This document shows positions 16,365 to 49,996 of a stretch of 64,000 bases of DNA, piece by piece. How positions within the stretch are numbered: the stretch's first letter is position 1; the number at the start of each line of letters is the position of its first letter. The stretch is from Zarea fungicola (taxonomy: Eukaryota; Ascomycota; Sordariomycetes; Hypocreales; Cordycipitaceae): NCBI GenBank assembly GCA_900169235.1, contig FWCC01000080.1:124001-188000 (forward strand), read 5' to 3'. The notes below the pieces were generated by a model. The model was not told where the DNA came from, made no database searches, and saw only the letters and a program-made list of their open reading frames with translations. A program made the translations under genes and the position numbers.

Positions 16365-17036
16365 GCTGGAAGAATGCCCAGCAAAGGTGGGCGGTGATGG
16401 TGCAGCAGCAAGTAGGCTACCTAGCAGTGAGGGGGAAAAAGAGAACCCTTGGAGAGCGTGTCGGGACGGGCCAGGGCGGCATTCTTATTTAGAAGCTGCA
16501 TACGGAATACTGGGTAACTTTGCAGAATAATTATTATGCAGTGCAGTGCAATACAACGTTACCCAGTCTTGGCCTCGAATTATCGCCCGCGCCCGCGCTG
16601 ATTAGCTCTAGTGGCTTGGGGTAGCTGTACTGGATATGACGATAAGGAGCTTGGCGGATGGATTTTCTTGGGGAAATGGAGCTCAATGCCGGCAATGTTC
16701 GGCGAGACAGGGCCGGGGAGGCTTACGGGCCAAGAGGGCGTTTGCATGATCGTCAACATGAAGGAGATGAGGCGGGGAGCGCGGCAGCGTTGGCAGCGTT
16801 TGCAGCGTAACCGGAAAAAACGGCAGAAGCCGAGATGGTCAGCCGGGGCTGGGCTGTATAGATGAATAGTGTGAGCGATGTATGATGCCGTGCCTGATTG
16901 AAACACCGTGTATTGTTGGATGGAGTGGTGATGGTAGGATTGGCGATGGAGTTGTGTGTGTCTGTGTGCGGAGTAAGAACTGGTGTGGCTAGTTAGTGCG
17001 GACAAGTAATTGCTCCAATGGGGGCAGAGCCACTCA

Positions 17037-25222: not shown

Positions 25223-28200
25223 TTAGCTATTTCTTGTCAACTGCTTCCAAAATTTCGATATCCCCCCTGATCGGGCTAATGAGTTTGCTTTGCGCTTATT
25301 TTGGGACTTTTTCTGCTGTACAGGCGTTGCCATTGACTGTGTTGGTATACTTGAGGCCGCGTTATTTGGGAAGAATGACTCTCTTGATGAAAGAGCCGAA
25401 CTTGACAAGTTTGACATGTCTTGCGGTGTAAGTAAAGAAGACTTTTCTGACTTTGGTGAGAGTGTAGAGTCTGCCTTTGCGAACGGAATTGAGTGACCAG
25501 GATCAGGGACTTGTTGTTCTTGCGCTCCAAATGCAAACCTGATCTGGCGCGCTACCTCATGGTCAGGATCTCGCTTTCTGTACCCCGATTGTTTGAGTAG
25601 TTGTAGAACATTGTCATCTGAAATAAATTCTTTCCAGGTTTTGCGTCCCGCTGGGAGGATATTGGGATCCGCGCCATGCTCAAGCAGCAGGACCATGATG
25701 GGAAGCAGACGCTGCTTTGCAGCGTAATAGAGCGCAGTCCTTCTTCCAGAATTCATGCCATTTACATCATGGCCCAAGCTTAGGAACAGATTGATCATAG
25801 GGATGTTGCCCGTGGTTACGGCCTGTTTTATTGTCACAGCCCGTCGTAGCCCTGTGACGGCTCTGCAACAGCGTGACTTGCGAAAAGCCAAGTTACAGAT
25901 GGCCTTATAGTTATGACTCGATGGCCTTAGATCGAGCCAGTCTTCTGGTGTAAGGCCGCTCTCATCAAACAAGCCCCGAGGATCTTCAATAGCAGTGCTA
26001 TCCAGAAGGACCTGGATAGTAGCTAGATCTTGACTATAAACAGCCAGATGAAGAACAGACCAGCCATGATTGTCTTGCTGAGAGGCATTCATTCTCACGC
26101 GCTCGTCTTCCAGGAGACACTGGGCAACTTGAGAATGACCCATGTAGGCTGCATGGTGTAATGCAGTCCACCCGTGACAGTTTGCCTTGAGCGCGTCCGC
26201 ACGATGTGAAAGAAGCAGCTTTACGATGCTAGAATGCCCTCCATTGGCAGCGCAATGCAGCGCTGACGTGCCATATGAGCTCACAGCATTAATGCTGGCT
26301 CCTGATTCCAACAATAAGCGCACAACTTCCATATGGCCCTCTTCCGCTGCCCAGTGTATGGCAGACCAGCCATCCCGATCACGAGAATTCGGATTTGCGC
26401 CTTTACCGAGAAGCAGTTGTGAAATGAAATAGTTGCCAGCCGCAGCAGCTTCGTCTAAAGGCATCATCATCGGCCCCTTTAGCGACCTCAACACATTCGC
26501 ACCGCGTTCCACAAGCATTTGAGCAATTCTTATATGGCTGAGACCGGCTGCCCAAGCCAGCGCAGACTTTCCATCCGGGCTGGCTGAGTTGGGATTTCCA
26601 GCGCCCAGGGATAAAAGTTTCTCAGTGGTTTCGGCCTTGCCAGCAACCACAGCCCAGAGGAGCGGAGTAAATCCGTAGTTGTCCATGGGCTCAGCGTCAA
26701 CGCCATTGTCGGTCAAAATTTGTATGCCATTCGTGTTGCCCATCTGTGCAGCATAATGCAAAGCTGTTTGGCCATTGTCGTCGCCTAGATTCATAATGGA
26801 TTTATCGCCGGCGTTGAGCAACAGATCTATAAGAGCAGGATAACAAGACTGTTGCACGAAGGCGTAGTGGAATGTCGTTCTACCGCTTTTGTCTCTGCTG
26901 CTCAGCTTTGCGCCGCCCTGGATCAAAGACTTGGCCGATTGTAAATCGCCTGTCTGCACAGCATGATGAAGCTTTGTCATTCCTGCCTCGTTTTTATCTT
27001 CCAGGTCAAGCCTCCTTACTGATGGATCAAGGTCTTCCGCGACGAGATCCAAATCGACATTGGCTGCCTCAGCGTCGCCATCGCCGTCCTGGAAAACGAG
27101 ATCTTCGTCGTCGTCCAGTACGCTGTACATGGATCCACGGAGATTTTCTAACCCAGGCCCAACTTCATCATCGAATGACTCGTCGCTATCAAAGTTCATA
27201 TTGTGCTCATCTTCATGGCTCGGCAGCTTTTGCAGGGTAAGCAAAGCAATTTCCTTTATATGGCCGGCAATATGTGACTGTAGAGCTTGGCTCGCAAAGA
27301 CGGGACTCGGTTCGACTTTTTCCGGGGGCTGGAAATCATCATTAAAGGGGCATTGCAGCATTTTATCGAGTATTGGTCTTCGCGCTGCGCTGCTGAGAAT
27401 CCCGACATGAGTCTCCGGTACGCCATGCTCCCTGATCGAATGCTCCTGGTACTGGATCTCCTCGTTGAATGTCATTGGAGAGTGAGAAGGGGCTCTACAC
27501 TCCCATGCATGCCCGTGAGCGTTTTGCATGTGGCTGATCCAAGCGTTTGACGTTTCAAATGTTGCCGGAGCGGTTGTCTCATCTTTTCCCTCCAAGCAGT
27601 GCGGAAAGACACAAATAAAGGGTTCCAAGTCTCTGATGACGTGATTTCTAACGCATATTAGCTCTGGTATAATACTATTAAGAAAGTAGTGTTCCGCTTA
27701 CTGCCACAACGTTGACCTTGACCCGATCTTAAATTCAATAATAACGCCACAGTACGGGCATTCTGGTGACGAAGGTACTGGAGGGAACGATAGTTTATTG
27801 TTGACTACAATTGATTTAGCGCGAGGGACCTCCGTTGTGGACTTTGCGTAGAAAGCGCCAACAGCAGTCTGTCGAGCCGTCGTCGCATTTGTCGCTGGCG
27901 CTGGCACGAAGCCGGCTGGTCCTGATGGTTTATTGACACTCGCAGGTTTTTGGAACACGCCCGCAGCAAAACTCACTGTCTGATGAGGAGCCTCCTTCAT
28001 CTTGGGTAGTTGTGGACGAACAGCTTGGGTGAATTGTGGATTCTGAATACTCAAGTCAATGCGCCGTCGGTGGGATCGCTGATAATACAGCCGTCGAAGT
28101 CGCAGCTCATTAGCTTTGACTAATGCTTTACGAAGTGAATCAGGCGCCTCGGGAAACCGGAAGCGAATGTAGCATTCTGTGTAGAGACGCAACTCAGCTA

Positions 28201-29068
28201 TAGCGATGTTTGCTTCTTCATCGTCGATGTATCGTTCGATTTTGTGAGCCCGGTTGGCCTTTGCAGACCTTCGCACGGCATTGGAGAGGCGGAAGAGTCG
28301 TGTTACAGTGCCGTGGATTGTGACTGTGATTTTTGAAATATTCTCTTCTGTCTGATCCAGCTCACTATCCGAGTCGCTTGAATAGTTTTCGTCGGTTCTC
28401 CTCGTGACCTGTGAATCTTTGTCTTCTCCTATGCGCTGTTTTTTCCTTGTCCGTTTCGGTGGTCCTTGTTCTTCGACTGGTTGCACTGTGGAGGAGAATC
28501 CCGTCAGCATAAAATTCGTTGACCTACAGTCCATTCCAAAATCATGCAACGACAGGCACTTACAAGAATCTAAAGTCTCACAGATAACGTCCAGGAGCTG
28601 ATGTAAAATCTGGACGACTGTGGGACTGTATCGGAGTCTGTAGTCCAGCGAAACATTGAGCGGTCCGTAGACGTCCATGTTGTTTGCCCACAGTGTGAAG
28701 CGTGCCAACTGGTCATCCATAATCGTAGGATCCGGCACGATATCCGCAATGGCCATTTTCCTCTGGAAAAGGGAGTTGCACTGGGTTGCGTGCTCTGCGA
28801 TTGTCGGGCAGAGAGCCTCTTGAAGAAAGATATCCTCAGTAAAGTCATCCTCCATAGTATCCAGCCCACTCATAGCGACAAAGAGGGAGGCACCGTAGTA
28901 GGCGACGTCCCTGTGAGAGCGCAGGATATTCACGAAGCTGATGCGCGTCAATGCGCAATAAGAGGAGAGAAGAGGAAGCAGAGAATCTTGAATCCTAGAC
29001 AGCACAAGCAAATCTTGGCCAATACTTGAGTTTGCAAAAGGTGTTGTATATGCCTCGGCGAGGGACAA
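25223..29068 (-). CDS. large zinc-finger/ankyrin-repeat protein
   Basis: Predicted 1237 aa from exons 28564-29068, 27702-28485 and 25223-27647. The N-terminal 170 residues are a helical domain with a RFTLWANN...SLDYRLR signature common in fungal ankyrin and STAND proteins. A basic/acidic linker follows, then a C2H2-like zinc-binding region beginning CPYCG (about 415), split by the 54-nt intron and continuing as FICVFPHC, ISHMQNAH and W-E-C. About eleven ankyrin repeats occupy roughly 648-1120. The tail is Ser-rich with a KKSQNKRK nuclear-localisation-like stretch. Intron 28486-28563 is 78 nt and stop-free, so retention is also possible. Start faces the gasdermin gene across 663 bp. Role unknown; a scaffold or sensor function is inferred from architecture and location. 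Confidence 0.8.
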
Positions 29069-29731
29069 GCTAGGCCACTACTGAAGCCGGGGGAGAGGGC
29101 GATTCAGAGCCTGTCAATGTCCATTCAGCGCTTTGGGCACGACCGCTATTATACAATGACAGCGCATTTCAAAAGAACCTTGAACTAGTGGCTGCGGTGC
29201 AGGACCCGCCCTTCCGCCGAAGGGGAATTAGGTCCATAACTGGCTTGCTCAATTTCAGACGGGCGCGACCCTCTGTTGTCTCTGTCGTGGCGGCTGAAGG
29301 TTGATAAAAGAACCCTCCGTCACTCGCAGGTGATAGCATATGCACACTCCCATTCCACTAATCCTGCCCCGTCTTTTATTTGAGCGGGTGACACTGCAGG
29401 CAACCCGCGTCTCATACTGTACTGGCTCGCACAGTGTCTTGTGTACTGTAGCTCAAGGCAGCTGAAAATGTATCAACCGCTAAGAAGGCCGTATGTTTCA
29501 AAGTCCTTTTGGCGCTTCTGCTTGTACAATATTAGGTTCAAGAAAGAGGAGGCCAGTTCGTGCGACAGGCGCCGCCACCACAAACCTGATTTCATAACAG
29601 GCCCAACGACGGACCAGAGCATTCCGGAAGCAATAAATAAATTGCCAAAGACTGTCAAGTAGACCAGTGCATAGCGTCCTTGGCTGGGAATTAAGACCCA
29701 GGATCTTGCTTTGAGCCTTGCTTCAACAGCC
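29069..29731. promoter_or_regulatory. shared divergent promoter, ankyrin protein / gasdermin
   Basis: 663 bp separating two divergent ATGs. No open frame of note apart from a 73-codon one at 29441-29662. Presumed to hold both promoters; no specific operator could be identified. Confidence 0.4.
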
Positions 29732-30565
29732 ATGTCTTTCACAAAGACATATTTTCTATGCCCAACGTCGGATTTCATCCACCCACCACCAGCAGGTCCG
29801 CTCTGTCTCGGCTCTATACTTCGCTCCTCGTCAACACCGCAATACCCTCTAAATAGGGCAAACGTTATCGCCGTGCCTGACACATCAATTTTTCCAATCG
29901 TCGAGACTGACTGGAAGAAGACTGTTTCCACCAGCCAGGATTTTGGCCTGGGTGTCTATGCTCAGTTCCTTCAGCTAGCCACTGGTACTGAAGCGGAAGT
30001 GGCGCATTCAAATCAAACCTCGAATACGTTTGCTTTTGACACGTTGACGACGCTGGCCTTTGAACCGACGCAGGAATATGTGAAGGAAGCCATAAAAGCA
30101 GCTCCTGCGGTGCAGTCGTGGCTGAAGGAGCCGAGGCAGCGGTTCGCACCATCTTGCTCGCTCTACCTCGTCACGGGCATGAAGCTCGTCAAGGGCGCAA
30201 TGATTAAGTTCTCAACTTCAAAGAACACGACAGCTACGGGAAATCTTGGTGTCAATGTACCCACTTTGGGCTTGACTGTCGGACCAAAGGGCCATTGGAA
30301 GTCTGCGGCTAGCGACGAGACCGCGTTTAACCGTGAGTCGAAGTTTGTGTTTGCGTTCCGTCTGAAAAGGCTCAAGTTTGGGCGCAATGTCAAGATGGAA
30401 GAGTATAACAAGGGTGCTTTTCTGGCTGTTGATGGTGGGGAGGAAGAGGGCAACGACGCATCACTTTCTGTTTTGGTAGAAGATGTGGATGGCTCTGAAA
30501 TCAACACTGCGAAAGCTGTTTCAGATGTGACAGAGAACGGTATGGTTTATTGCGTCCCGACTTGA
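29732..30565 (+). CDS. fungal gasdermin-like pore-forming protein (HET-Q1/RCD-1 type)
   Basis: 277-aa single-exon cytosolic protein with no signal peptide. Recognised as fungal gasdermin-like from blocks CPTSDFIHPPPAGPLCLGS (10-28), FGLGVYAQFLQL (71-82), EPRQRFAP (133-140), LYLVTGMKLVKGA (144-156) and FVFAFRLKRLKF (205-216). Length matches the Podospora HET-Q1 class. These proteins form membrane pores and kill the cell after proteolytic removal of a short C-terminal inhibitory piece, or by incompatible allele contact in RCD-1. Here residues about 232-277 form an acidic tail that could be the inhibitor. The first true ATG is 29732. Its stop is 82 bp from the stop of the convergent S8 protease, its likely activator. 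Family recognition is from memory, without a search. Confidence 0.82.
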   Translation: MSFTKTYFLCPTSDFIHPPPAGPLCLGSILRSSSTPQYPLNRANVIAVPDTSIFPIVETDWKKTVSTSQDFGLGVYAQFLQLATGTEAEVAHSNQTSNTFAFDTLTTLAFEPTQEYVKEAIKAAPAVQSWLKEPRQRFAPSCSLYLVTGMKLVKGAMIKFSTSKNTTATGNLGVNVPTLGLTVGPKGHWKSAASDETAFNRESKFVFAFRLKRLKFGRNVKMEEYNKGAFLAVDGGEEEGNDASLSVLVEDVDGSEINTAKAVSDVTENGMVYCVPT

Positions 30566-30647
30566 TTGTGGTATATGGTGAGATGAAATTGAGATGCTAG
30601 TATACTACATATAGTAGAAAAATTGACTGGAACCATTTACTGAGCTT

Positions 30648-33600
30648 CTAGTCATACATGTGTCGTCTGAGATCCTTGATCCTGTCATAGACTTTCTCTC
30701 TCGACGCCCCCCTATCGAAAAGCTCACTCGGCCTGATGTAGCTGTACCCAGCCCCCCTCGTCTGACTGGCCATGCTCTTCAGCACCATATCCATGGAATG
30801 AACGTCCTTCAGCCACGGCCCTAATAATTCACCTCCTGCCATGGCGTGCTGGTCTTGCTGCCTCACAAACGACAGGACCGAAGCGGCAAGCCCTGCGGCA
30901 ATCGGTGTTGCGACCGATGTCCCTGACATGGCATTGACAGGTTCGCTGAGGCCATTCGCAAGGCTAACCGGCCAGTAGGAGGAGACATTCTCCCCGAGGA
31001 GACTAAAATTGACGTCTTTATCGTCTGCGGTCGGGTTGAACGCAGACGGGTTGCCGTTTCCATCGGTCGAGTGTATACAAAAGATACTTGGGTATTTAGC
31101 GGGAAACGCTCTTCCTAGATTGGCTCCATCGTTCGATGCCGCTGCGAACATCAATGTCTGACCGTGTAGGGCATTCGATATAGCTTTTGTCATTGGCTCG
31201 TTATATTCACGAATCCCGAACGACATTGATATAATGTCTACGTTCCATTCAGACACTGCGTGATTAATGGCCTTTACACACAATTAGCTCAGTCTGAGAG
31301 GGAAAAAAAAGAAAAAAAAAGGAAAGAAAAAGAGTTCATGGTCTGCCAGCCAGACTTGCCTTTGCAATGTCATCGTACGTGTTACGATTCAGTGTTGCTC
31401 GATGCGCAATTTTGCCGATATAAATCTCAGCGCATGGGGCAACTTTCAGTAGCAGACCAAGGGCGTGAGTGCCGTGCCCAATCTCGTCTCGAATGTCCTG
31501 TGGATCTGTGCCATGTACAAAACTCTGTGCAGCCTTGATTCGTGGGTCTATTTGTCCGAGGTCATCCCTCAGGAGCGGGTTTTCAGGGTCAAACCCGGAA
31601 TCCAAGATGGCTATTCGCACAGGTTCGACAGTTTGGAGCGTACCAGCTTGGACAGGGTCGAAGGGGTCAACGAATTGGTAAATCGAGGAGAGTAGGTTGT
31701 CCATCCATTTTCGCGATAGTGGATTCCTGGCAAAAGGTCATTAGTATGACGTTGGTTTATAAACTCTGAAACAATCCCTTACTCCTGTTCACAGCCCGTC
31801 TGATGGCTTGCGTCGAAAAAGTGCAAGCTATGTGTTGAATCCTCAGGGATTTTCGCACGAGGAGTTTGCGCAGATTTCTGTACCACCATGTCGGAATTGA
31901 AGCTTGCCGTCACAGACTCAGACATTGAGCGTTGTGCAGATGCGCGCACCAAATTATTTGTATCAGCGGGAGAGTCATGCTTGCCAGTTTCAAGGCGGAC
32001 GACTTCTCGACCGATGGAGCCCCAACAGTTTTCATTCTCTCGATTATCGAATGAGCTCAGATCCTCTATTCGAAGACGCCACGACTTGAAAATTTCGGCC
32101 TCAAGTCGTTTGACCACATTTTGATAGAAGAGCCGTTGGACTGTCTCAGAGTCAAAGGCTGCGTCCTGTCCAGCGGGCAAGTATTCCCAGTGCAGGCATG
32201 CCTTCGTGGCCAGATAGTAATCCAGGCCAGCCTCAGCTTCTAGCGTCTTCAGTATCTCAAGGCTTGTATACCAATCAGTGTTTACATTCTTTTTGGCAAC
32301 CGAGTCGCTTTGCCAGTGCTCCACGGCAGTCAGATGATGGAGCTCACACAGGAGGATGCCGAGCGCTAGCACACTGGCGTTGGGATGAATGCTCTGATTG
32401 GACACGTCAGAGCCACCGACATTTGTGCCTGTCTTTTTGCCAGCTGTGAAGATGGGGATGTGCTCCATAGCCAGAAAAGGCTTCGTGATATCGGGCAGCT
32501 GTTCATCCTCCAGCGGCTGAAAAAACAAAATCTTGGAATGGTTGAACGAGGGCTGCAGCCACGGCGTCTCCAAGAACGGAAGAAGCGCTGAGGCGAGTGT
32601 GATGGCCAAGACTCGCTTACCCTTGAGTGACAAGGCAGATGAGCTGCCACGTAACTCTTGTTGACGCTTGAATAAAGCCGCCAAGGACATTGTCCGGGAC
32701 ATTTTATCTCCACCAAAGGTCTTTGGCTGAGGACGAAGTCTCTGAAATGTCCCATGTTCAAGAGCCAAATGCAAGCAATTTCGCTGGCCGAGGGAGTCTG
32801 AAATACTTTGGCAAATGTGAACCAAATCGCCTGCGCCGCCATCGACAGGCGCGGATGAGCTCCTCCCCCTGCTGTATACGTCCCTGCCGTGAATAAAGGT
32901 GTCAGCGTAACTCAGGTACCTGGAAAATCGATCCAACACTTACTTGATTGTTATTTTGGCCTCTTGCAATGAAATTGCAGGTACAGACCGTATACCGAAA
33001 AACACATCAAAGGACGTCTCATCTTTGGAGTCTTTCTTTTGGGGCAGGGAAAGTCTGACGCTCAACCCTGAGCATTTCTGGCAAACACATACCCACTGTT
33101 TCCGTAGCGCATTGTCCAAGGATACCAAATGTCTCCTTGTCAACATGGCGAGGTCAGTATCGCCCTCTTCGAAATTGTCGCCGGCACTGGGTTCTTCACG
33201 AGCAATGACTCGGCGCTTCTTTGAGTCCCTGTCCATGTATTCTATTTCCTCGATTATTTGGTCCCTTTGTCGACTTCTTTTACCAACGCGAATCGTAAGA
33301 CCTTGATTGGAATCCGGACTCTCGACCATGTTGCGCAATGCCTGAAGCTTCGGATACGGCCCCTCCGGCAGGAAGTTCTGCCTCGCAACCTAATGTCAGT
33401 AGGAGCGAAGGAAAAAAAAAAAAAGGAGGCAAAAGAGTAAAGCTTGCCGCATATCATCCCGGGAGCACTTACGAAATCTGGTCCTCCGTCAGGATTGACT
33501 TCAACGTAGCCTTCAAGCGCATGAAGCGTTCTTTTACGCTGCTCAGGCCCCATCTCGTCAAATGCATCGGCATCATGCTGCAGAAAAGCATCCGTCCTTA

Positions 33601-33721
33601 GCCAAGCATCCTGTCTCCGCGCTTTTAAAGATTTGGGTTTCTTTATCGGCCGTTCCTGTGGTTTTCGAGCAAGAAACCCAAACACGGACCTCAGCAGGCC
33701 GGGAGTCTCGTCGGCGTCCAT
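30648..33721 (-). CDS. DUF7580-like + subtilisin (S8) protease, HET-Q2-like gasdermin activator
   Basis: 928 aa from five exons: 33473-33721, 32944-33389, 31783-32883, 31360-31726 and 30648-31271; phases agree throughout. No signal peptide, so cytosolic. The N-terminal part includes a DUF7580-like helical region (about 310-530, with HPNASVLALGILLCELH). The C-terminal S8 domain has a complete catalytic set: Asp641 in AILDSGFD, His683 in IGHGTHALG, oxyanion Asn768 in AAASNDG and Ser840 in MSGTSVATPIAAG. The intron 31272-31359 has a GC donor (AAG/GCAAGT) and is needed to join IAK to AINHAVSEW. This is the HET-Q2 architecture; HET-Q2 cleaves gasdermin HET-Q1. The tail-to-tail gasdermin neighbour makes the same role likely here. 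Confidence 0.85.
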
Positions 33722-35743: not shown

Positions 35744-36847
35744 TCAAGAGGCCGAGCAGGTAATGCGTGAGTATGCATAGTCGAAGGCCTCCAGATACCC
35801 TTTCATCTGGATGACAGCGGCGCAGACCACCAGGACGTGCATGAATGAGTGGGAGCTGCACATGTCGAATTTTCCAGGCCACCAGCTTTCGGGAAACCTC
35901 ATCTTTCAAATCACGTATATTAGGATCAATTTTCCACCAGCATGGACAAAACGGGAGACTCACTGCATAAAGCGCGGTTCCAGATAAAAGGCAGCGTACC
36001 TTTGCCACCATGGTATAGGTGAAGGCTTTTTTGTTCATCAGGCCTAGCCCGAATATACTGAGGCCATGAATCAAGGGCGCCACAACGGACATGCCAGTCG
36101 CGACGAACGCTAGTGTTCGCAAGGAGCGATACTTGTGGCTCTGGAGCTTAGGATGAACGTTTGTGATGATGGTCATTGCCCCAAAAACACCAATCTATTC
36201 GCAGATGAAGGTGGTGTTAGATTCCATCACCAGTCCAAGGGCAGACAAGGCCAAGCATTGAGGGATCAGCTTACCATGGACCAATAAATATTGCGTAGCG
36301 TAGTCTCACACCAAAAAATTAAATATATTCCCAGGACAATGTCACCGACGATAAAGATGCTTATACCAAGCATATCTAGTCGGTGGCAGAAATGGTCCAC
36401 GGAGCAAGAGTGGTTCATCAAAGTATGATAGACGGCTGAAAATCCATAGCAAATGGTCGCCGTAAGTATAAACGACGAGAAGGCAAGAAAATCGGCGCTA
36501 GTGACTCTGGAATATTTGCTAGCAAGGTACTGCAAGATGAACCACTCGCCGAGGAGGAAGACAATAGCTGGAATAAGATGTGTATAGATGTTCACCGTCT
36601 CGTTGTGGAGATACCACCAGCTGCGAAACGAGGCACGAACCGAGCCCGATATGGGCCGGTAACTGTGAAGAATCCACTGATTGTTGTCGTGTTGAAACCA
36701 TTCTGGCATCTCATCGAACGAGAGAAGAGCCTGGCGTCCGCGTCTTGCCTCAGCGGACCAGGGTCTGGATGCGTCGTCTTCCATTCCCCGCCTTTTGAAC
36801 ACGTCTGGCTCCTTGGATGGAACTCGGAGACGGGTAACGGACGCCAT
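35744..36847 (-). CDS. PAQR / hemolysin III family seven-helix membrane receptor
   Basis: 320 aa from exons 36275-36847, 35964-36194 and 35744-35902 (introns 80 and 61 nt, both phase 0). Residues 1-80 are cytosolic, followed by seven transmembrane helices. Family landmarks: LHNETVNIYTHLIPA, then SAVYHTLMNHS with the first zinc-binding histidine, LDMLGI with the aspartate, and MCSSHSFMHV with the last two histidines, all of the PAQR zinc site. AMRFPESWWPGKFD restores the conserved RFPE...PGKFD loop only when the second intron is taken as 35903-35963, which fixes that model. Fungal relatives (Izh proteins) affect zinc and sterol homeostasis and may act as ceramidase-like receptors; yeast Izh2 is an osmotin receptor. 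Divergent from the NLR gene. Confidence 0.88.
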
Positions 36848-38028: not shown

Positions 38029-38181
38029 TCCTCTCTTCAAATGATGCGACGGCGTAAAAAATCGAGACAATGTCGCGTAATGGACGGACAGTTCAGGCAA
38101 AGTCACGAACCGCTAACAGAATACATCGCACGGACGCTCCCCGAGTCTCTCATTTCTTGATGACCTGCGCCCTAGCTGGAG

Positions 38182-41100
38182 ATGGCGTCCCGTGAAGACT
38201 ATGTAGTTGGGTGGCTCTGCCATTTGCCTGTCGAGGTGGCCGCAGCCAAAGCAGCGCTCGATTGCGTCCATGGAAATCTTCCCACGGATCAGGATTCAGA
38301 CAGCAACAACGAATACATCCTGGGCAGTCTGCACGGCCACAATGTCGTTGTGGCGTATCCAAAGGTGTACAGCAAATCGTCGCTGGCCGACGTCCTCGCA
38401 CAGTTGCATGCAAGCTACCCGTCTGTCCGATTCAATCTCATGGTCGGCATTGCGGGAGGAGTGCCCGATACGAAGGAGGATGTTCGTCTTGGTGATGTTG
38501 TCGTCAGCAAGTCGGCAGCCGGCTGGTCAGGTGTCCTCGAGTACGATATGAACGGGGAACGAGCGAAAGATCAGATTGGTCTCGGCAGAGGCCTGGATCA
38601 GCCGACGCTTTTGCTTCTCACAGCTATGGGAAAGGTTGAGACAGCCGCCATATTTAAAGAAAGCAAGATGCCACGCTACATCTCCGAGATCGTGCAGAAA
38701 GATCCAGTTGCCTTTGCCCACCCTGGCCCTGGACAAGACGTCCTATTCGACGCAGAGTATAATCATGTAACCAAGGAATCCGAACAAGGCGGATGTAGTC
38801 ATTGTGACCCGGACAGGATCCGGTCAAGGCAGCCGCGTGACGTACAGGATCCCGTTGTTCATTATGGCTCAATTGCCTCCACCCGTCATTTGACACGCAA
38901 CGGAGCAGGCCGGGACCATTTCGCGCGCAAGCATGGTATAATCTGCCTCGAGAAAGACGCAACTGAGCTGAGGGATGACGCCCAGTACCTGGTCATCCGA
39001 GGAATCAGCGACTACGCAGACTCGCACAGCTCAGACATCTGGCATGCCTGGGCAGCAGTGACCGCAGCAGCATGTGCAAGAGAGCTCCTTTCATTCGTGC
39101 CCGCCGCCTCCAAGACGGTACCTCTGCCCGCAAACGCGTATGACGAGGCCGACGCCGCGGCCGTTCTTGAGGCCTTGCTTCTGACAAGACCTGACGTTGA
39201 TCGCAAGTCCCTCATGGCACTGAAGGGACGCAGGGTTGATGGAACCTGCGAGTGGGTTACGAAGCATCGACATTATCAAGACTGGCTGGCAGATACGAGT
39301 CAACCACTCCTCTGGGTCTTGAGTCAGCCACTCCTCTGGATCTCAGGTGGCCCTGGAAAAGGAAAGACAATGCTCGCGATTTATATCACCGAGGTGCTGC
39401 AACCACTGGTCGACGCTGGTGGCCATGTTCTCCTCTATTACTTCTGCAGTAATCGTGACAAGAATCGAAACACCGCATTCGCTATTTTAAGAGGCATCCT
39501 GCATCAATGGATTGACCTCCAGCCTCACCTGGCCAAAGAAGTCAAGAGCTCATTCGAGGGGGCGGACATGACAAAGTCCACAGTTTCCAGTATTCTCGCG
39601 CTGTGGAGTGTTTTCTTGACTCTGCTCCAGCATACCACATCTTCTCAGGTAATCTGTGTCCTCGATGGTCTCGACGAGTGCGACAAGGAATCACTCACAC
39701 AGCTTCTAGATGCCATTGGGAGCTACTTGTCGCAGACTAGAGAAGAGGCAAAGCCGCGACTGAAGCTCATTATTCTCTCCAGACCTCAGTCGGCTGCGTT
39801 GGAGAGCAAACTCAGCCTCCATCGACAGATTCGGTTAGACGCCTCGGACCCGGAAACAGAAACTGCGCATGACGTCGAGAGATACATCTTTGCCAAAGTC
39901 GCCGAACTGGCATCTGAGCAAGACCTTTCCGAAGAGATGGTCGCGCACGTTCGGCTGCACCTGCTCGCTGGCACTGATGGCACCTTTCTGTGGGTTGCAT
40001 TCGTTACCAATGAGCTTCAGGGCCGGAGTTGGGGCGAGATGGAACAAGTGCTCCGCGAAATTCCCAAAGGCCTAGGTGGGATTTATCAGCGGTTTCTTCG
40101 TCAGGTCCACGGCAAGGAAGCCCTGGTCCCCATTCTTCAATGGGTTGTTCTCGCTGCCCGACCCCTCACACTGGAAGAACTGGCCGTGGCCGCCGAGGTC
40201 AAGGAGGATCGTACTATTCCAGCAACGCAAGTGACCCGGAGGCAGCTCAAGCTCGGCGGGTTGCTCGTCAAGGTCGAAGGAGACATCGTCTATTTGGTTC
40301 ACGAATCAGCCAAAGAATTCTTTCAGAGCGATCAAGTCAACATAAAAGGGATCGACATGTTCCATATGGGCCGCATAACCCACAGAAAGCTCATGCAGAC
40401 TTGTCTGGCTCACGTAGAAGACAGATACGGAAATTCCAGCGCACCCGGGCAGGATCCCTTCTTATCTTACGCCAGCCAGTACTGGCCGGTACATTTTCAC
40501 CACGCTATTCATGTGATTGACTCTGCAACGGAATTCTCGCGCCCATTCTTTCGAGTGAATTCTCCCATCCGGACAGAATGGTGGAAGTTCTACTGGGAGG
40601 AAGGGAAGAACGGCGGCAGCCCGCCAACTTTCACGCTCTTGCATTTCGCGGCATACTTTGGAAACGTGCCCTGGGCCAAAATGCTACTCGCCACGCATGC
40701 CCGCCTCATTTCGCGCAAGGACAATTACGGCCGGACACCTTTGTACTGGGCAGTCAACGAAGGTCACCAAGAAATGGTGGAGCTCCTGCTTGAACATGGA
40801 GCACGTGTCAACTTCAAGGATCGAAGCATGTTAACTGCTTTACACATTGCAGTAATCGGCCAAAACAGAGACATTGTCAGTGTGCTGCTCGATCATGGTG
40901 CCCATATCGAGGCCAAGGGGGAGACTGGCGACACAGACACCCCATTGGTGCGAGCTATTTTGCTCAACTCGATAAACATTATGGAAGAACTACTCCTGCA
41001 AGGAGCGCGTGTGGATAAATTGCCATCTCTTCTGGGAGTCGCTCCTCTGAAAGGGCCGGCGTATCCATTAAAGGAACGGGTGATAGAGCTACTTGGGCTC

Positions 41101-42189
41101 CAGAAGCAGGTCCTGAATGCACGCTTCAATAATTCGACGCGAGCTGTGGACCTGGTTACGAAGGGGCTGTTCCTGTCCATCCGCGTTCCTCTGGTCCTCG
41201 AAGTGATGACCCTCTATCTCAAGTATATGGCGTTGAACCGCATGGACAGTCTGCCTGTCCTGCGGGAGTTGGTCCAGGGGAACAAGAGGAAGAAACTGCG
41301 GGCATGGGCAAAGCCGTACCATGTGTTTCTCGCGGGACTGGTGCACGCTAAAAGTGCAAGGAAGCTCCAGGCCATGGGCGACCTGCCGACATATTGCTTG
41401 CAGAAGGTCACACCCGGGGATATGCAGGCATTGGTGGTCATCATGACCTTCACCGGCATGGAAACGAAACTCACTGCTGTCCAACATGGATGGATGCCAG
41501 GAGACGAGATCACATCTGCGGCAATCGCAGACTGGGCCGCCATAGCCTACGAGAGGGACTCTCTAAACTACTTCGACATCGGCATCAGGGAATTCCTGAT
41601 TGATTTCGGTGCTTGTATCCGGAGTGGGAACCGGGAAGAGAGCGTGCTACGAACGACGGTACTCATAACGGTCCACTGCGCCATGCTCGACAAACAGAAA
41701 CCCGGGCCGATCGAGTACATATCCCGGGTCATCGCGGACTTCTTGGAAGCATACATGGACAGCGTTGTCGATGTTGGACTGGCCGGCGGCGCGAACAGAG
41801 CGTACGCAAACAGGCTGCGCGTCGCCAGCGACACCCGAGACTCTGCCCTGCTGCGTCGCCTCCTCACTACCGTTTTCCAGTACGCCCAACAGGCCCACGA
41901 GACGTCACAAGAACGCTTTCTCAGCATACCCTCGGTCGCCTGCCTGATCCTCTGCCAGGAGAACGCAGGAGCCCACCGGTGGCTCATTGGCGAGGCCATC
42001 CCGGAGGAGATGGCGGCGTTGATTGCGCAGCAGCCTCAGGGAGCACTGCAGAAGCGGGCTTACAAGGCTTTGATAGAGTGCCTGATTATTGGGAAGCAGT
42101 ACGGCTTGGGCGCTCAGAAAAAAAGCGTCGAGATGTATCTGTCCTCGCCAGAGGTTCATCATATGATAAATCGCATACTGGATGTATAA
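38182..42189 (+). CDS. NLR-type receptor: nucleoside-phosphorylase-like, NACHT, ankyrin
   Basis: 1335-aa single-exon STAND protein. Residues 1-300: nucleoside phosphorylase-like domain (AIAGGVPDT-type glycine loop, HYGSIAS, DHFARKHGIICLEKDA, VIRGISDYADSH). Residues about 370-700: NACHT NTPase with Walker A GGPGKGKT at 389-396, Walker B LDGLDECD at 494-501 and an IILSRPQ sensor. Residues about 814-912: three ankyrin repeats, then about 420 mostly helical residues of unknown type. Fungal NLRs of this build sense non-self through the repeats and trigger incompatibility or defence reactions. The phosphorylase signature ExEAAGL is altered (see findings), and an 8-residue tandem duplication precedes Walker A. 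Several competing ATG-starting frames in this interval are shadows. Lies 4.5 kb from the protease start. Confidence 0.9.
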   Translation: MASREDYVVGWLCHLPVEVAAAKAALDCVHGNLPTDQDSDSNNEYILGSLHGHNVVVAYPKVYSKSSLADVLAQLHASYPSVRFNLMVGIAGGVPDTKEDVRLGDVVVSKSAAGWSGVLEYDMNGERAKDQIGLGRGLDQPTLLLLTAMGKVETAAIFKESKMPRYISEIVQKDPVAFAHPGPGQDVLFDAEYNHVTKESEQGGCSHCDPDRIRSRQPRDVQDPVVHYGSIASTRHLTRNGAGRDHFARKHGIICLEKDATELRDDAQYLVIRGISDYADSHSSDIWHAWAAVTAAACARELLSFVPAASKTVPLPANAYDEADAAAVLEALLLTRPDVDRKSLMALKGRRVDGTCEWVTKHRHYQDWLADTSQPLLWVLSQPLLWISGGPGKGKTMLAIYITEVLQPLVDAGGHVLLYYFCSNRDKNRNTAFAILRGILHQWIDLQPHLAKEVKSSFEGADMTKSTVSSILALWSVFLTLLQHTTSSQVICVLDGLDECDKESLTQLLDAIGSYLSQTREEAKPRLKLIILSRPQSAALESKLSLHRQIRLDASDPETETAHDVERYIFAKVAELASEQDLSEEMVAHVRLHLLAGTDGTFLWVAFVTNELQGRSWGEMEQVLREIPKGLGGIYQRFLRQVHGKEALVPILQWVVLAARPLTLEELAVAAEVKEDRTIPATQVTRRQLKLGGLLVKVEGDIVYLVHESAKEFFQSDQVNIKGIDMFHMGRITHRKLMQTCLAHVEDRYGNSSAPGQDPFLSYASQYWPVHFHHAIHVIDSATEFSRPFFRVNSPIRTEWWKFYWEEGKNGGSPPTFTLLHFAAYFGNVPWAKMLLATHARLISRKDNYGRTPLYWAVNEGHQEMVELLLEHGARVNFKDRSMLTALHIAVIGQNRDIVSVLLDHGAHIEAKGETGDTDTPLVRAILLNSINIMEELLLQGARVDKLPSLLGVAPLKGPAYPLKERVIELLGLQKQVLNARFNNSTRAVDLVTKGLFLSIRVPLVLEVMTLYLKYMALNRMDSLPVLRELVQGNKRKKLRAWAKPYHVFLAGLVHAKSARKLQAMGDLPTYCLQKVTPGDMQALVVIMTFTGMETKLTAVQHGWMPGDEITSAAIADWAAIAYERDSLNYFDIGIREFLIDFGACIRSGNREESVLRTTVLITVHCAMLDKQKPGPIEYISRVIADFLEAYMDSVVDVGLAGGANRAYANRLRVASDTRDSALLRRLLTTVFQYAQQAHETSQERFLSIPSVACLILCQENAGAHRWLIGEAIPEEMAALIAQQPQGALQKRAYKALIECLIIGKQYGLGAQKKSVEMYLSSPEVHHMINRILDV
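39298..39345 (+). repeat. 24-bp tandem duplication inside the NLR gene
   Basis: Two adjacent 24-nt units encode SQPLLWVL and SQPLLWIS, differing at five positions, ending at the first glycine of the Walker A loop. In-frame, so the protein stays open. Confidence 0.85.
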
Positions 42190-44609
42190 AGAATTATGGG
42201 ATACGCGCTCACTTTCCTGTAATCGCGCACAAAATTGCATGTTGGCGTACTAATTATGAACAAAAATTTATGTATTTGCGGCTTTCATGCTGTACCTACT
42301 GGTGGAGGTGATGGCGGAGATCATCGATTTGCTGAGCATGTGAGGCGTGTCCTGTCCTGGGTTTCTTCATACCTCGCGAGCTGGAGTTTGAAGGGTGGGA
42401 AGAGTAACGCACGCTCAACATGGATGATGCCCACGAACGATATCACAGGAAAGATCAGGATCTCTCCTCTTAGCTCTTCAATTCTACCTCTTTGTACCAA
42501 GATTGTTTAGATAGATGGAATGAATCGCCCAAACCCTCAAATTTGGGAAGAATTCAAATAAATTAGAACTCATACGACCCCTCGTGCGAATGTAGCGACT
42601 CTTGCATTTTTCTCTTGAGAAAAACGTTGGGAACTGACACGCTCATGAGTCGCAATACTCGTACTTACCCGTGAGAAACTACCGGGTTTTCTTGCGCGCG
42701 CCCCTTAGCACGCCCAGGGAAACAGCAGGCTCGTTTACGCCAACGAGAATATCGACGAATGGGACGAGACTAGCCCTCAAGACGAACCGACGACCTTTTA
42801 GATGATGGAGGCAGGCAGCCAGGATGGGGGCTCCCCGTGGAGAAGCACCAAGCTAATTCTGCAAATGATGACACAGATGTCCAAACGACTACAAGCGCTG
42901 CATGCCGACCGATGAAACGACCGAGTCGACCGGGAGAATGATGACGACGGAATGCGGCCGCAAATCCAAGCATTGCAATATGGGATGACTACGTCCACCG
43001 TGACCCCTAGCTACTAATACTCAAGCCTGAGCCAATCTGACCTGGAGCAGGGATTAGACCCAAGAGAAGCAATCAACTCTCAAGGCACGCTCAGATGGCA
43101 AAAGATCAAAAATCCGCGATTGCTTGTTCGTCGGGGAGAAATTGTCAATCAATACACAACATGGGTGTAGGAATAAATAAACTGCTCCGTTCTAGTAATA
43201 CATTGATTGGGGTGACTTGTCATGCATGGGCCATTCAGTAAATCGAGAATATCGAGCAACGCGCCTGCATCGTCAATTAAGTCATTTTGGTGCAGGAGAA
43301 CGAACAATTGGCTCCATTTGAACGAGCAAATCCAGTAAATTCACGCACTGCGTCCCACATTGCATTGAGGCTGCGATGTGGATGGTGCCATGACCAGTTT
43401 CCCTGACGGCGCATGCAGATCACCATGCATGGAACTTTGTTTTCTTGCAGCGCGAACTAGGATATAGAAATGGTTCTTTTGCATTTATCTGGTTGCCAAA
43501 AATAGAAGCGCATCCGAAAGCCCCCCCGGATAGCGGCGCAACGGCAGACAATTAGGCATAAAACTTAAGATCTGCGCTTAGATCGGCATCCCAGCTACCG
43601 GATCCTGCTGCGCTACCCAAATATGATACAAGGGCCTGTCAGTCCAAGCCAGCCAACCAGTAGCGAATGCAACATCGCACGGCGCATGCTTAATTTTTTT
43701 AGACCTTCACCTGCCTCTTTCGGGAATGAGAGACGGTCGCCTTACTCTCCCGGTCCTGGGGGCTGCCAAATTAAGAAGAACAGGCGGATACCAGCTAGGC
43801 TGCAGAATGTCTCATGTCGGTCTCCTGCGCTATTTCGGCCCTATGGTATCTTTGAGGCATGTGATGTTAGCCGCAGCAGACGGGAGCCACGGAGGTGAGA
43901 AGGAGCAACATCTACACCGCAGCCACAGAGGCAACACGGGACAAGAACCGACGGAACTTTTGTAAGAAGGCGGAAAATGGGAGGAAAACTCCTAAGGAGT
44001 AACTTGTCTATATTCCCTTCAAGTTTCCTTTGGTGTGTAGTAAATGGTGAAACAGACCTAGTCCAGTTCCCGGCATTGAAATTCGGACTCCTACATCTTC
44101 ATCGCCCGTAAAAATCTCCCTTGAACAACTATTGTTGCCCAGGTAGCTCATGCGATTCTCAAGATAAGGTTCCGTGCTTCCACTCGACCAAGGTCAGCAA
44201 ATGAAACCCTCTCTTCCGCGTGCACTTTCATCCAGTCATTCAGAGCTACGGGAACAGATCGGCAAACCAGTGTCTAGATGGGGGAGGAGGCGACCAGATC
44301 TACACACAGCGCGTGGATCCTCACGTCGAACAAACACGAAATATCATCCTTTCATGCTACCTGCTTCTTTGCACGAAGTACCTTCCTAAAATTGGCAAAA
44401 CCGCTATTTGAAGAATATTGTAGCAATCTGTAGCAATTCATAGCTGTCAAATATGTATATATAGCGTGTCTTTTCATAGATTTGTTGACTTGAGCACCTC
44501 CATTGACACCATTCAACATTCGCTCTATTCTCCTGAACTTGCCCACGATCAGCTTTTCCCCCTATACACCCTATACACCCTATACACTAGATATCGAATA
44601 CAGTTCAAT
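42190..44609. other. intergenic, 2.4 kb
   Basis: No gene recognised. Short frames at 42235-42510, 42770-42998, 43623-43965 and 44174-44411 have no domains or splice support. The 3' end holds the promoter and 5' UTR of the subtilisin gene, including a CCCTATACA repeat (44561-44588). Confidence 0.35.
44561..44588 (+). repeat. CCCTATACA tandem in subtilisin 5' leader
   Basis: Three copies of a 9-nt CCCTATACA unit ending 22 bp before the ATG; it is in the 5' UTR and not a telomere repeat. Confidence 0.7.
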
Positions 44610-45949
<1,340 letters not shown>

Positions 45950-46045: not shown

Positions 46046-47755
46046 CTAGTTTCCAAACAATTTCTGCCTTTTCATAGCTACAGAGGCAACCACGAGGACC
46101 ACACCAGCCACAACGACCAGAATGAATGGCTTTTGCATGGCATCAACAATAGCCTGAATTGCTTGCTGTTTGAGACCATCATTCAACCCGCCAAACATGT
46201 CGCTCTGCGTTCCAGCAATCATGCCTTGAATATCCTTGTCGGAGAGTCCCGACCCAGCAAGGACAACCCGTAAATTGTGGAAAGCTGTAGACTGGAAGGC
46301 TTGGCTGGCGATGACCAGTGCAATTACTGAACTCCCAATCTGTGAGACGTTTTGCATGGAAATGGCATTTCCAATATCATGCGGCGGCAGAACAAGTGTG
46401 GCGACAGAGTACCCGAGTTGAAGCGAGAGGCCCGTACCGACAGCCGCAAGAACAGTAAACCCGTAAATGCTAGCCTCGGATGTAGAAGTTTTTAGATAAA
46501 CCTTTAGCAAAGCTCCTCCCAGTGTGATAAAAATACCCGAGGTGAGGAATATCGGCATATAGTACTTTACCATAGCAAGAAGATGTCCTGCAACAAGGTT
46601 GAACGTCACCGTAATAACAACATACGGCAGTAGTCGGACCGCTGCCATGATGGACGAATCTCCATGGACAAACTGGAAGTAGATTGGTATGTAGTAAACC
46701 ACGACAAACAGAACGGTAATTGAACAAGACGTCGCGACATAGAGGAGAATCTGAGTGCGAGAGCGGAGCAGATGACCAGGAAAAGAACGGTGGTCCTTTG
46801 TTGTAAAGATGGTGAGGTATTGCTGAAGTGCGTAAAAGGCGAGCAGCAGCCCGAAAACAACCACAGTGGCGATAGTTCGGCCGTCGCTCCAGGACCATTG
46901 GCCCCCTGCATTGATGAAGGCCAAGGTGAAGGCCACCCACATTCCAGCGCTGAGAATTGTACCCAAAGGATCAAATTGAGAAATGTCCAGCGCCGCAACG
47001 AGCTTACCTTGGGGATAAATCGACGGAAGATGAATGATGTAAATAGGAGCTGCCGCAGCGCCGATGACGAGATTGATATAAAACGCCCAGCGCCAGGTTG
47101 CGTTGGAGACAGCAAAGGCACCTCCTATAACAGGTCCAAGAACTGCCCCCATTCCCCAGTGAAACCCGACCAGTGCGATATATATACCGCGCTCCTTTTC
47201 CGTAGTAAGATGCGATATGTAGTTGATTGCACCAGTAAGGATGCCGCTTCCGCCACAGCCTGCAATGACTCGTCCAACGCACAACGCCGATATTGTAGGC
47301 GCGGCGCCGCACACAGCTGAACCAATTTCGAATAGGAGAATACTGCCGATGAAGAGAAATTTGAGATCAAATATTGTGTACAGTTTACCAACGAGTAGGA
47401 TGATTGCAACTGATCCCATAGGAAAACCCGCGCCCACCCAAGCTAGTTGGTCAATGTTGCCAAACGATTTAATCAACGAGCCTTGGACATCTGCGGCAAT
47501 GGTGGTATCGAGACCATATAAGAAGGTGGAAATGTACACTGACATACAGACAAGGAACCATTTCAGGCCTTGAATGGACCGGGGTGCATGGGTTTGGTTG
47601 TCCTGATCGCCAGCAACCGCGATTGCTGCTTCTGCGGTTTCGGGTTCCAGTCTCCCGTCTTTCTCCATGTCCTCAGTCGACGTATTTGGACCATGAATAG
47701 GTCTTTGAGCAGCAGTGTCAGACAATGAAGTTGATTTAAATGATACCCCCGCCAT
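46046..47755 (-). CDS. MFS drug efflux pump, DHA2 (14-helix) type
   Basis: 569-aa single-exon multidrug:proton antiporter-2 family transporter. After about 60 cytosolic residues come 14 predicted helices. Landmarks: FLYGLDTTIAADVQ in helix 1 (the D-x-T-I-V motif D1 region), WVGAGFPMGS, VGRVIAGCGGSGILTGA, and the motif C-like GFHWGMGAVLGPVIGGAF typical of drug antiporters. Such pumps export toxins, fungicides or self-made metabolites. ATG 47755 is preferred; an in-frame ATG at 47827 would add 24 residues without similarity. A Zn2Cys6 regulator lies directly upstream on the same strand, 544 bp away, suggesting local control. The convergent subtilisin stop is 96 bp away. Confidence 0.88.
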   Translation of the reverse strand: MAGVSFKSTSLSDTAAQRPIHGPNTSTEDMEKDGRLEPETAEAAIAVAGDQDNQTHAPRSIQGLKWFLVCMSVYISTFLYGLDTTIAADVQGSLIKSFGNIDQLAWVGAGFPMGSVAIILLVGKLYTIFDLKFLFIGSILLFEIGSAVCGAAPTISALCVGRVIAGCGGSGILTGAINYISHLTTEKERGIYIALVGFHWGMGAVLGPVIGGAFAVSNATWRWAFYINLVIGAAAAPIYIIHLPSIYPQGKLVAALDISQFDPLGTILSAGMWVAFTLAFINAGGQWSWSDGRTIATVVVFGLLLAFYALQQYLTIFTTKDHRSFPGHLLRSRTQILLYVATSCSITVLFVVVYYIPIYFQFVHGDSSIMAAVRLLPYVVITVTFNLVAGHLLAMVKYYMPIFLTSGIFITLGGALLKVYLKTSTSEASIYGFTVLAAVGTGLSLQLGYSVATLVLPPHDIGNAISMQNVSQIGSSVIALVIASQAFQSTAFHNLRVVLAGSGLSDKDIQGMIAGTQSDMFGGLNDGLKQQAIQAIVDAMQKPFILVVVAGVVLVVASVAMKRQKLFGN

Positions 47756-48299
47756 TGCTAAGCTGAGAAATTCGCAAGCAGTTGAATGAATTAGCCTTGT
47801 AGTGTACGAAGCAAAGTGGGCAAGCAAATAGCGGACAAACGAATGTGTGTTAGCTGTGCTGGTTGCTACTGCAATTCAACGTTGTGACATTAAGTCCTTT
47901 ATAGTACTGATATATCCGCGGCCATTCTCATTGCATTTGTAATACAGCCAGTTTGTGCGTATTTTGACAGAGCACTGGCCAGTGTCCGTTGAACTTGTAC
48001 CGCCTGTCGCATACTTGAGCAGCGGCCAAAATGAAGCAAGGCCGCCTCGGCCGAGACCCCTGTCAACCCACCCACCACCCCTTTGATCTACGGTCCACAT
48101 TTCAACACAAGCCAAGTGGTTTACATGTTCTTTAATGTGTGCGAAGTGCACAGTGCTTTTATGGAGAATGAGAATGATGAAGCGGCACCTTGCGCGGAGT
48201 GCGTCCGGCATGAGACAGTACTATCCTCGCAGCTTAATTTGAAAGCCGGGAAATTAAGAATTTGAATTCTGCAATAAATAGCGTAAAATAAGGGCCAGT
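47756..48299. promoter_or_regulatory. efflux pump promoter region
   Basis: 544 bp between the regulator stop and pump ATG. A 60-111-codon open frame pair here is not supported. No defined operator; CGG/CCG triplets exist but no clear Zn2Cys6 site was established. Confidence 0.35.
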
Positions 48300-49996
48300 C
48301 TATTGATAATGGACAGTTTCGGGATGCTTCCCTAGGCGCTGTAAGAGAATTTCTGCAGAAGAAAATGTTAGAGCTGTCAGTGATGGCGTCGTTGATGTGT
48401 AAGAGTCATACCGCCAATGTGCCACCTAGAAGAGTACAGTGCCAGGCCTTTCTTGAGATTTGAAACGCCCTGCTCAGAAATTGGTTCCGATTGCGATTCC
48501 ACCAAGGACAAGGCCGCTGTGTAGAGGCAACATAGGCCGAGGAAGCATGCTCGCCTGGGATCCCACTGCCCGCTCGAGGAAGCCTCCATTGTCTGCTGGC
48601 ACATGTCAAAAATCATATCACTCACGAATTTCGTGGCAATGTCGGATTTCTTTTCGCTGCACACATCGTCGATAGGCTCTCGGGATGAGTATATGCATAC
48701 CAAAGCGCTGTTCTGCGTGTTACTATGCAAACGTGTGTCCCTCAGTTGGGTAGCATGCTAGCTTACCTGAGAGACATGGCCACGGCCTCGCAGTAAGGGT
48801 AAGAGGTGTCCTGGGACATGGAGATATTCTTGTGTACCATGTTAAGTAGCGCACCTTGGATTTCGACGAGACCATTGTCGTCGGCAGTGCGACTAGTTGT
48901 CAGAGCCTCGCCAACGACAAGGGCAGAGCGTGCTCTGTTCCACAGAATGGAGCCAGGATCACTCTCTTCATTCTTTTCCAAGCCATGCTCGTATACAGAA
49001 AAAGAGGTATCAATTGTCATTAGCAACGGGATAGTGTAGTCCAGATGCGACAAGGTAATTGTGCTAGCGCGATGGTAAGCCAGGAGGCAAGTCCGCGATG
49101 TATTATTTCATAGCATCTTACCGGTCAATCAGTACCATGCCGCTCCAGCACTGTCGCATCTCTGTTGTTGCTCTTTCATTCTCTGTCGAGTTTGGTATAA
49201 TTGTTCTTGCGTTCAAAAAGGCGCGCTGCCGAAAAAGGCTCAGCGTAACTGCCAGAGTTGCATGCGCAGTCTCGGCTTGGCCATGTCCACACTCGTAGGC
49301 AGAGATCAGCAGGCCTGACTGGATCAAGTAAATGTCGGAACTTTGTTGTGATGCGTGGAGAACGAGGAACAACCGTTTCGCGGTTCGATAGAGCACGTTC
49401 CAAACAGAGTGGTTTGGGTGAATGCACGGGGGCCGTGAGAACAGGTGCATGGATAAAATAAGGAGCGCAAGGGGGTCGTCTTTAGTACAAGATTTCATGC
49501 AGGTAATTGCTGTCACGATGTCTTGCTCCACAAGAATGGGCAGGAGTGCGTGGGCATGTTGAAAGTAGTCCCGCGCCACCGAGAGCACATCGATGCCCGC
49601 TGCTTCAAAAATATCTCTGACTAGCGTCTGCACCGACGGTTCCGAGACGGCGTCCTCATCTACAGAACACTGCGCTGTCAAAAGAAGCAGACGCTCGCCC
49701 TGTACGGATAGATCAAAGGTGCATGGGTTTCGCAAGACGAAGAGGGAGTCAACGACTACTGGTGCTGCAGAGGATGGGACTGGGGGGCTCTTCTTGTCTA
49801 GAGGACGATTTTGGGGGTAGAAGCACGGTATGAACCTCCTACAACGTGTATTAGCATGCAGCGCCATCGCACGATGCCATATCGGACTGACGTACGAGGA
49901 GCAGCGCGAGCAACTGGGACGCTGTTTGTCACAAGAGACTTTACGGCTGGTACACGCCTTGCAGGCCTTTTGTGGTCGCTGTAGCGATCGTTCCAT
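48300..49996 (-). CDS. Zn2Cys6 transcription factor
   Basis: 487 aa from five exons: 49896-49996, 49122-49838, 48767-49063, 48412-48707 and 48300-48352, introns 57-59 nt, all GT-AG with matching phase. The first intron interrupts the zinc cluster; splicing gives CKACTSRKVSC followed by CSRC and a final Cys39, spacing C-x2-C-x6-C-x6-C-x2-C-x6-C, a canonical GAL4-type binuclear cluster binding CGG/CCG half-sites. The rest is helical like fungal regulatory middle domains. ATG 49996 was chosen because the upstream in-frame codons are not ATG. The acceptor of intron 3 at 48708 (AACAG) was selected by phase. Probably nuclear and, from position, a candidate regulator of the adjacent efflux pump. Confidence 0.85.

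Follow-up and report, generated by a model that had tools for sequence, protein, structure and literature searches.

Fungal gasdermin genes commonly sit beside protease genes: the share clustered in this way is put at more than 80% in one account (PMC12881547) and at about 80% in another, where some 63% of the gasdermins adjoin S8 proteases (PMC10197012). In Podospora, the fusion of unlike strains brings together the gasdermin HET-Q1 and the 388-amino-acid (aa) protease HET-Q2; cleavage of HET-Q1 at Phe238 removes 40 residues, or about 5 kDa (PMC10989679). Other described clusters join a gasdermin to an adjacent multidomain S8 protease in two-gene arrangements (Clave et al. 2022, known to us via reviews), and a review from 2025 includes proteases with fused, predicted kinase-like domains and clusters of two or three genes (PMC12881547). 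Here we describe a related locus in the ascomycete Zarea fungicola, found in a window of 64,000 nucleotides (contig FWCC01000080.1 of assembly GCA_900169235.1, positions 124,001 to 188,000). It comprises a gasdermin gene, a gene for an S8 protease with a DUF7580 region and a conserved third gene, and we give a probability of roughly 60% to the reading that the three form a regulated-cell-death module.

An earlier note on this DNA had seen a two-part, HET-Q1/HET-Q2-like module and did not include the third gene. The executioner gasdermin with a probable activating S8 protease stands, on homology and gene order. The window pair and HET-Q1/HET-Q2 are alike in gasdermin length (277 aa against 278 aa), in the S8 protease, in a phenylalanine near the gasdermin C terminus and in a tail, predicted for the window protein, of about 5 kDa (PMC10989679). 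Identity with the HET-Q1/HET-Q2 system itself is not supported: gasdermin and protease are encoded in the same genome, and the protease is multidomain, since a DUF7580 match of 329 residues and more N-terminal sequence distinguish it from the 388-aa HET-Q2. The HET-Q partners, compared here from published descriptions, are instead carried by different strains, and no third gene is described for them in the passages of the source consulted. The window pair appears to resemble HET-Q2/HET-Q1 in the last step, yet to be separate from that allorecognition pair. We read the published clusters of gasdermins with Q2-like proteases as the fitting comparison; the stops of the window pair are 82 bp apart, well inside the 10 kb by which a Q2-like protease is placed with a gasdermin. 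What sets the locus apart from those clusters is a particular family of third genes, together with DUF7580, both defined and counted below. Bacterial gasdermin-protease clusters also bring an executioner and a protease together (PMC12881547), a likeness drawn from description only. The gasdermin-protease pairing is already known in print, while the third gene and DUF7580 were not found in the literature searched.

A gasdermin and a DUF7580-S8 protease arranged tail to tail

The gasdermin gene (29732-30565, + strand) is an uninterrupted open reading frame for 277 aa, as the earlier note had it, and the comparison with RCD-1 that the note proposed gave a sequence-profile match. A profile of the window protein and 55 relatives (56 aligned), run against solved structures, matched Neurospora RCD-1-2 (8jyz_B, E = 1.3e-12) and RCD-1-1 (8jyz_A, E = 1.2e-10). 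Ten matches reached E = 1 or better, four of them RCD-1 and the next best two fatty-acid-binding proteins (E = 0.0045 and 0.0054), and the paralogue on contig C216 matched RCD-1 even as a lone query (E = 9e-5). By this homology to a solved fungal gasdermin, the product is classed with the fungal gasdermins. RCD-1 itself differs in being activated by the meeting of two allelic forms, without cleavage (PMC12881547). A Pfam scan of the window gasdermin gave no match at E ≤ 0.1, though PF26164 is precomputed on some of its relatives. The AlphaFold model, predicted from the 56 close relatives, was poor (mean pLDDT [predicted local distance difference test] of 44.6), so that the Foldseek result obtained with it is at most suggestive of a gasdermin fold: rows 1 to 25 of 48 were gasdermin entries, spanning fungi, mammals, a bacterium and Trichoplax, with a best E value of 0.09 and none significant. 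Relatives at E ≤ 1e-3 numbered 308 in a protein search and include the gasdermin of Trichoderma reesei QM6a (P0096); in the best 120, identity was 63 to 87% and query coverage 83 to 100%; the named ones among these 120 all belong to what we take to be Ascomycota. Among the matches listed, the closest were those of Talaromyces pinophilus and Penicillium occitanis, which were also the closest for the protease.

Near the gasdermin C terminus lies a GAF motif (residues 228 to 230), invariant across the 56 aligned sequences and present in 119 of 121. Its phenylalanine, Phe230 (codon at 30419-30421, +), is the proposed P1 residue of cleavage, by analogy with Phe238 of HET-Q1, to which it would correspond. 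A hypothetical cut after Phe230 would release a 47-residue tail of 4.8 kDa.

The protease gene (30648-33721, -) ends 82 bp from the gasdermin stop (30566-30647), tail to tail, the distance and orientation the earlier note had given. The exons (33721-33473, 33389-32944, 32883-31783, 31726-31360 and 31271-30648) were modeled from splice sites and are separated by three GT-AG introns and one GC-AG intron, and the spliced product is exactly the 928 aa that had been claimed. The catalytic residues named in the note also hold up, with Asp641 in IAILDSGFD, His683 in DEIGHGTHA, the oxyanion Asn768 in AAASNDGAN and Ser840 in MSGTSVATP; judged from these motifs, the S8 triad is intact. Pfam places Peptidase_S8 at residues 635 to 857 (30864-31620, -; E = 3.4e-24) and DUF7580 (PF24476), likewise foreseen in the note, at residues 168 to 496 (32091-33137, -; E = 7e-29). 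No mention of DUF7580 was found in the literature searched. The protease has 123 relatives at E ≤ 1e-3. By eye, neither the protease nor the gasdermin begins with a signal peptide.

The GC-AG intron (31272-31359, -) falls between the catalytic His and the oxyanion Asn, and an unspliced reading stops before Asn and Ser. The deposited models of 14 protease relatives end at this very point, and the next residue is Ala in 13 of them and Val in 1; read-through of a GC donor would give Ala. The model of relative P0226 is uninformative for the donor, as it ends at that Ala. Models missing the intron are over-represented in this set, which therefore shows recurrence and not frequency. Retention of this fourth intron, if it occurs, would yield a product without Asn768 and Ser840.

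A third gene with receptor-type parts in some of its relatives

Upstream of the gasdermin and on the opposite strand, the third gene (25223-28873, -; one intron, 27701-27648) is predicted to encode 1198 aa, comprising an N-terminal part, a C2H2-like block and ankyrin repeats. The prediction draws on a gene model, Pfam ankyrin matches, the C2H2-like columns, relatives and conservation in clusters. Its start and that of the gasdermin are separated by a divergent intergenic region of 858 bp (28874-29731), which may serve as a promoter. The N-terminal part is helical-looking (by reading only), and the C2H2-like block has invariant Cys, His and Trp columns common to the window protein and four paralogues. 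The C-terminal parts of the family are variable, with ankyrin repeats in the window gene. In the third gene on contig C258, a single open frame holds NPHP3_N (E = 6.5e-33) and the C2H2-like block, together with a part that looks PNP-like by eye, and the next frame has ankyrin matches and a winged-helix match below its cut-off. On contig C451, a TPR array adjoins the third-family block, to which a tentative splice would join it as one gene. The NACHT-ankyrin or TPR parts of these genes suggest a receptor.

Scanned third-gene frames of contigs C119, C216, C54 and C196 contained no informative Pfam family; zf-C2H2_4 appeared below its cut-off in the C119 gene. PF26082 is given for some relatives of the third family and is absent from the Pfam copy scanned. 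The closest relatives among the matches listed belong to Akanthomyces and Beauveria. In the literature searched we found nothing specific on a third gasdermin-cluster gene, which might be in the tables of the main survey (Clave et al. 2022).

The three genes recur together in the genome

We searched the genome (43.1 Mb, 456 contigs), scoring best candidates only; a full protease gene model was built for the window, and the other protease loci are represented by their DUF7580 and S8 exons. With the window gasdermin as query, five gasdermin loci were found, itself included. The S8 search gave 36 matches, merged into 31 loci, and the DUF7580 search gave 10 matches, 7 of which have same-strand S8 exons alongside. 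Each of the five gasdermins has DUF7580 and S8 exons in its vicinity and an S8 locus within 10 kb (6e-10 under random placement among the 31 S8 loci). The seven DUF7580-S8 loci each have a gasdermin no more than 3.3 kb from the S8 part, and a third-family gene follows at no more than 6.5 kb from the gasdermin. The gasdermins added in this way are gasdermin-like frames on contigs C196 (profile E = 1.2e-8) and C451, from a profile search over fetched loci only. An eighth gasdermin, on contig C327, came from genome-wide searching, alongside those of C196 and C258. Thus, seven of the eight gasdermins found (one of them weakly supported) are clustered with a DUF7580-S8 protease and a third-family gene, and one is alone. 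An S8 locus is found within 10 kb for seven of the eight (1e-12 under random placement) and, once the two protease-guided finds are set aside, for five of six (3.6e-9).

Third-family genes were found at nine genomic places with two queries: beside all seven DUF7580-S8 loci and on contigs C363 and C210. Seven of nine within clusters has a chance probability of about 3e-16, and at least five of nine near the six gasdermins one of 2e-11. The C210 match (217583-219682, -) lies 1.3 kb from a same-strand NPHP3_N match and away from any gasdermin found; it is possibly a free-standing NOD-like receptor (NLR) of the third family. The lone C327 gasdermin frame (8766-9500, +, of locus L029) carries, close to its end, a Y-x-R-G-A motif that the window family also has.

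The gene set in other Ascomycota

Co-location in other species was judged from the rows of three protein searches, of which 83, 99 and 93 of 120 each were used; contigs of identical size were taken as one contig, and locus tags were compared. These rows gave 23 same-contig pairs of gasdermin and protease, 28 of gasdermin and third gene and 36 of protease and third gene, with all three families on 9 contigs and at least two on 69. Seven third-gene locus tags had been predicted before the search, and three were returned exactly (ETB97_000459, PFICI_10860 and CDD82_3356). Of 15 protease and third-gene pairs with comparable tags, 11 show a difference of exactly two, as expected if the gasdermin lies between them. 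Gasdermin and protease tags differed by one in seven of eight pairs and by two in the other; for gasdermin and third gene (12 pairs), the difference was one in six, two in three and four in two. The deposited protease model of Aspergillus avenaceus (P0192) terminates in a stretch matching the antisense of a gasdermin start, which shows the tail-to-tail order directly in that species.

Pairwise distances of partners were correlated (gasdermin and protease, r = 0.785, 23 pairs; gasdermin and third gene, r = 0.780, 28 pairs; protease and third gene, r = 0.930, 36 pairs), values reached by none of 5,000 shuffles each. In a protease tree of 94 rows the taxonomic classes were mixed, requiring 19 class-label changes where the minimum is 4, while the starred branches force just 4 each for two classes. 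This mixing fits horizontal movement, old duplicates or balanced versions. Strongly diverged module proteins occur under one species name in Beauveria bassiana, Fusarium mundagurra and Xylaria scruposa; such versions could be paralogues or alternative haplotypes.

Neighboring genes

The earlier note had also placed further recognition-type genes beside the pair, which homology and gene order support. Besides the third gene, an NLR of NACHT-ankyrin type (38176-42186, +; Pfam), whose PNP_UDP_1 match falls below the cut-off, lies 4.5 kb past the protease. It is a possible associate only: the genome has 117 NPHP3_N (NACHT-type) matches, a large NLR repertoire that makes proximity weak evidence. 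With about 100 NPHP3_N loci such a neighbor is a 5% event, and we did not conclude that this NLR is a fourth member of the module. Between the protease and the NLR, Pfam identifies an exon of a HlyIII-type membrane protein (36269-36847, -). A subtilase at 44424-45946 (+), with I9 propeptide and S8 matches in neighboring frames, looks like an ordinary secreted enzyme. Frames for a major facilitator superfamily transporter and a Zn2Cys6 transcription factor follow at 46049-50035 (-), and a glycoside hydrolase family 2 gene with an exo-beta-D-glucosaminidase Ig-like domain was recognized by Pfam at 13689-16484 (-).

Proposed mechanism and alternative explanations

What the sequence shows directly is three genes with their domains, an intact protease triad, a conserved motif in the gasdermin tail and the repeated co-occurrence of the whole set. 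The trigger, its sensing by the third protein, autoinhibition, cleavage of the gasdermin and its site, and the forming of pores belong to a model built on analogy. In this model the gasdermin would be produced inactive, restrained by its C-terminal tail. Since gasdermin and protease are encoded in one genome, the protease must be silent at rest, and this cytosolic enzyme would be silenced by its own N-terminal part, DUF7580 included. The third protein, a likely receptor or gatekeeper, would sense the trigger and free the protease, which would cut the gasdermin after about Phe230. The released pore domain would then oligomerize in the plasma membrane and kill the compartment.

Several observations weigh against a three-gene death module of this kind. 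The C451 gasdermin is weak, matching in two pieces (E = 1.6e-4 and 1e-3) among the fetched loci only, and the gasdermins of C451 and C196 were sought only beside proteases. The C327 gasdermin has neither protease nor third gene in the surrounding 19 kb read, and none of the searches for S8, DUF7580, the third family and CHAT had a match on its contig. Pfam finds no NACHT or NB-ARC in the window third protein, with ankyrin families alone above the cut-off in its 824-aa frame and none in its 459-aa frame. For DUF7580, kinase entries fill the list of fold matches, but the kinase-like fold reaches a Foldseek E value of 0.048 at best, with TM-scores near 0.2; in an alignment by eye, the position of the catalytic-loop Asp (HRD) is Ser in 52 of 59 sequences and Asp in 1 of 59, and modeling makes the domain weakly kinase-like. 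Outside this genome, the predicted tag N0V90_001841 was off by one, and three others were not among the best 120 of 206 third-gene rows. Four of the 15 protease-third gene gaps differ from two (N0V90, 3; LTR86, 4; LZL87, 70; FVEG, 5437), and in A9Z42 the gasdermin and third-gene tags are 60 apart. Shared species history alone also yields correlated partner distances.

The alternative to which we give most weight, while holding it unlikely, keeps the module and makes the third protein its brake, scaffold or transcription factor, not its sensor. The C2H2-like block (with zf-C2H2_4 below its cut-off on C119) would suit such a role, as would the position of the third gene, whose start faces that of the gasdermin in the window and that of the protease in five of the seven clusters, by reading-frame positions. 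The NACHT-ankyrin parts of the C258 gene and the TPR array beside that of C451 are of receptor type and count against it. Less probable is an allorecognition (het) locus of the HET-Q kind, with alternative versions segregating and death following the fusion of unlike strains. HET-Q1 and HET-Q2 do operate as an allorecognition pair (PMC12881547, PMC10989679), and in Beauveria bassiana the gasdermin is 85% identical to that of the window, while the sole protease among the best 120 of 123 is 53% identical, a difference that may stem from alternative versions or simply from paralogous clusters. However, gasdermin and protease coexist here and on one contig in 23 other cases, so that their simple co-presence cannot kill. 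We consider it improbable, and more so than a het locus, that the pair serves controlled secretion, a role named as one to explore for two-gene clusters (PMC12881547), since the characterized fungal gasdermins cause death (PMC12881547, PMC10989679). That the genes are chance neighbors in defense-gene-rich regions, where the 117 NPHP3_N matches make NLR-type neighbors common, is already contradicted by the five of six gasdermins found irrespective of proteases that lie near an S8 locus, by the clustering of third-family places (about 3e-16, or 2e-11 near the six gasdermins) and by the recurrence of the set in other species, and has a negligible probability.

A three-gene cell-death module is thus the reading we prefer. 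A further elaboration of it is possible and is offered tentatively: an uncontracted, inflammasome-like fungal pathway in which a subtilisin gated by a pseudokinase, a gasdermin and a separate receptor of NLR/ankyrin type, C2H2-like in its N-terminal region, would be encoded together and inherited, perhaps horizontally, as a unit across Ascomycota. The protease may in that case also be controlled by retention of the recurrent GC-AG intron, which removes the catalytic Ser. The possible three-tier logic, with receptor, protease and gasdermin as separate proteins, recalls the mammalian sequence of NLR inflammasome, caspase-1 and GSDMD; the order of the tiers in the fungal module is by contrast a proposal, and the likeness drawn is one of logic.

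Implications for fungal cell death

The stimuli that activate the putative fungal sensors are named as a major open question in the 2025 review (PMC12881547). For the missing sensor or switch, the third gene is a concrete candidate: its family accompanies gasdermin and protease in seven clusters of this genome and recurs in various other Ascomycota. If DUF7580 is truly a pseudokinase, the protease would combine a necroptosis-style switch and a pyroptosis-style activator in one protein.

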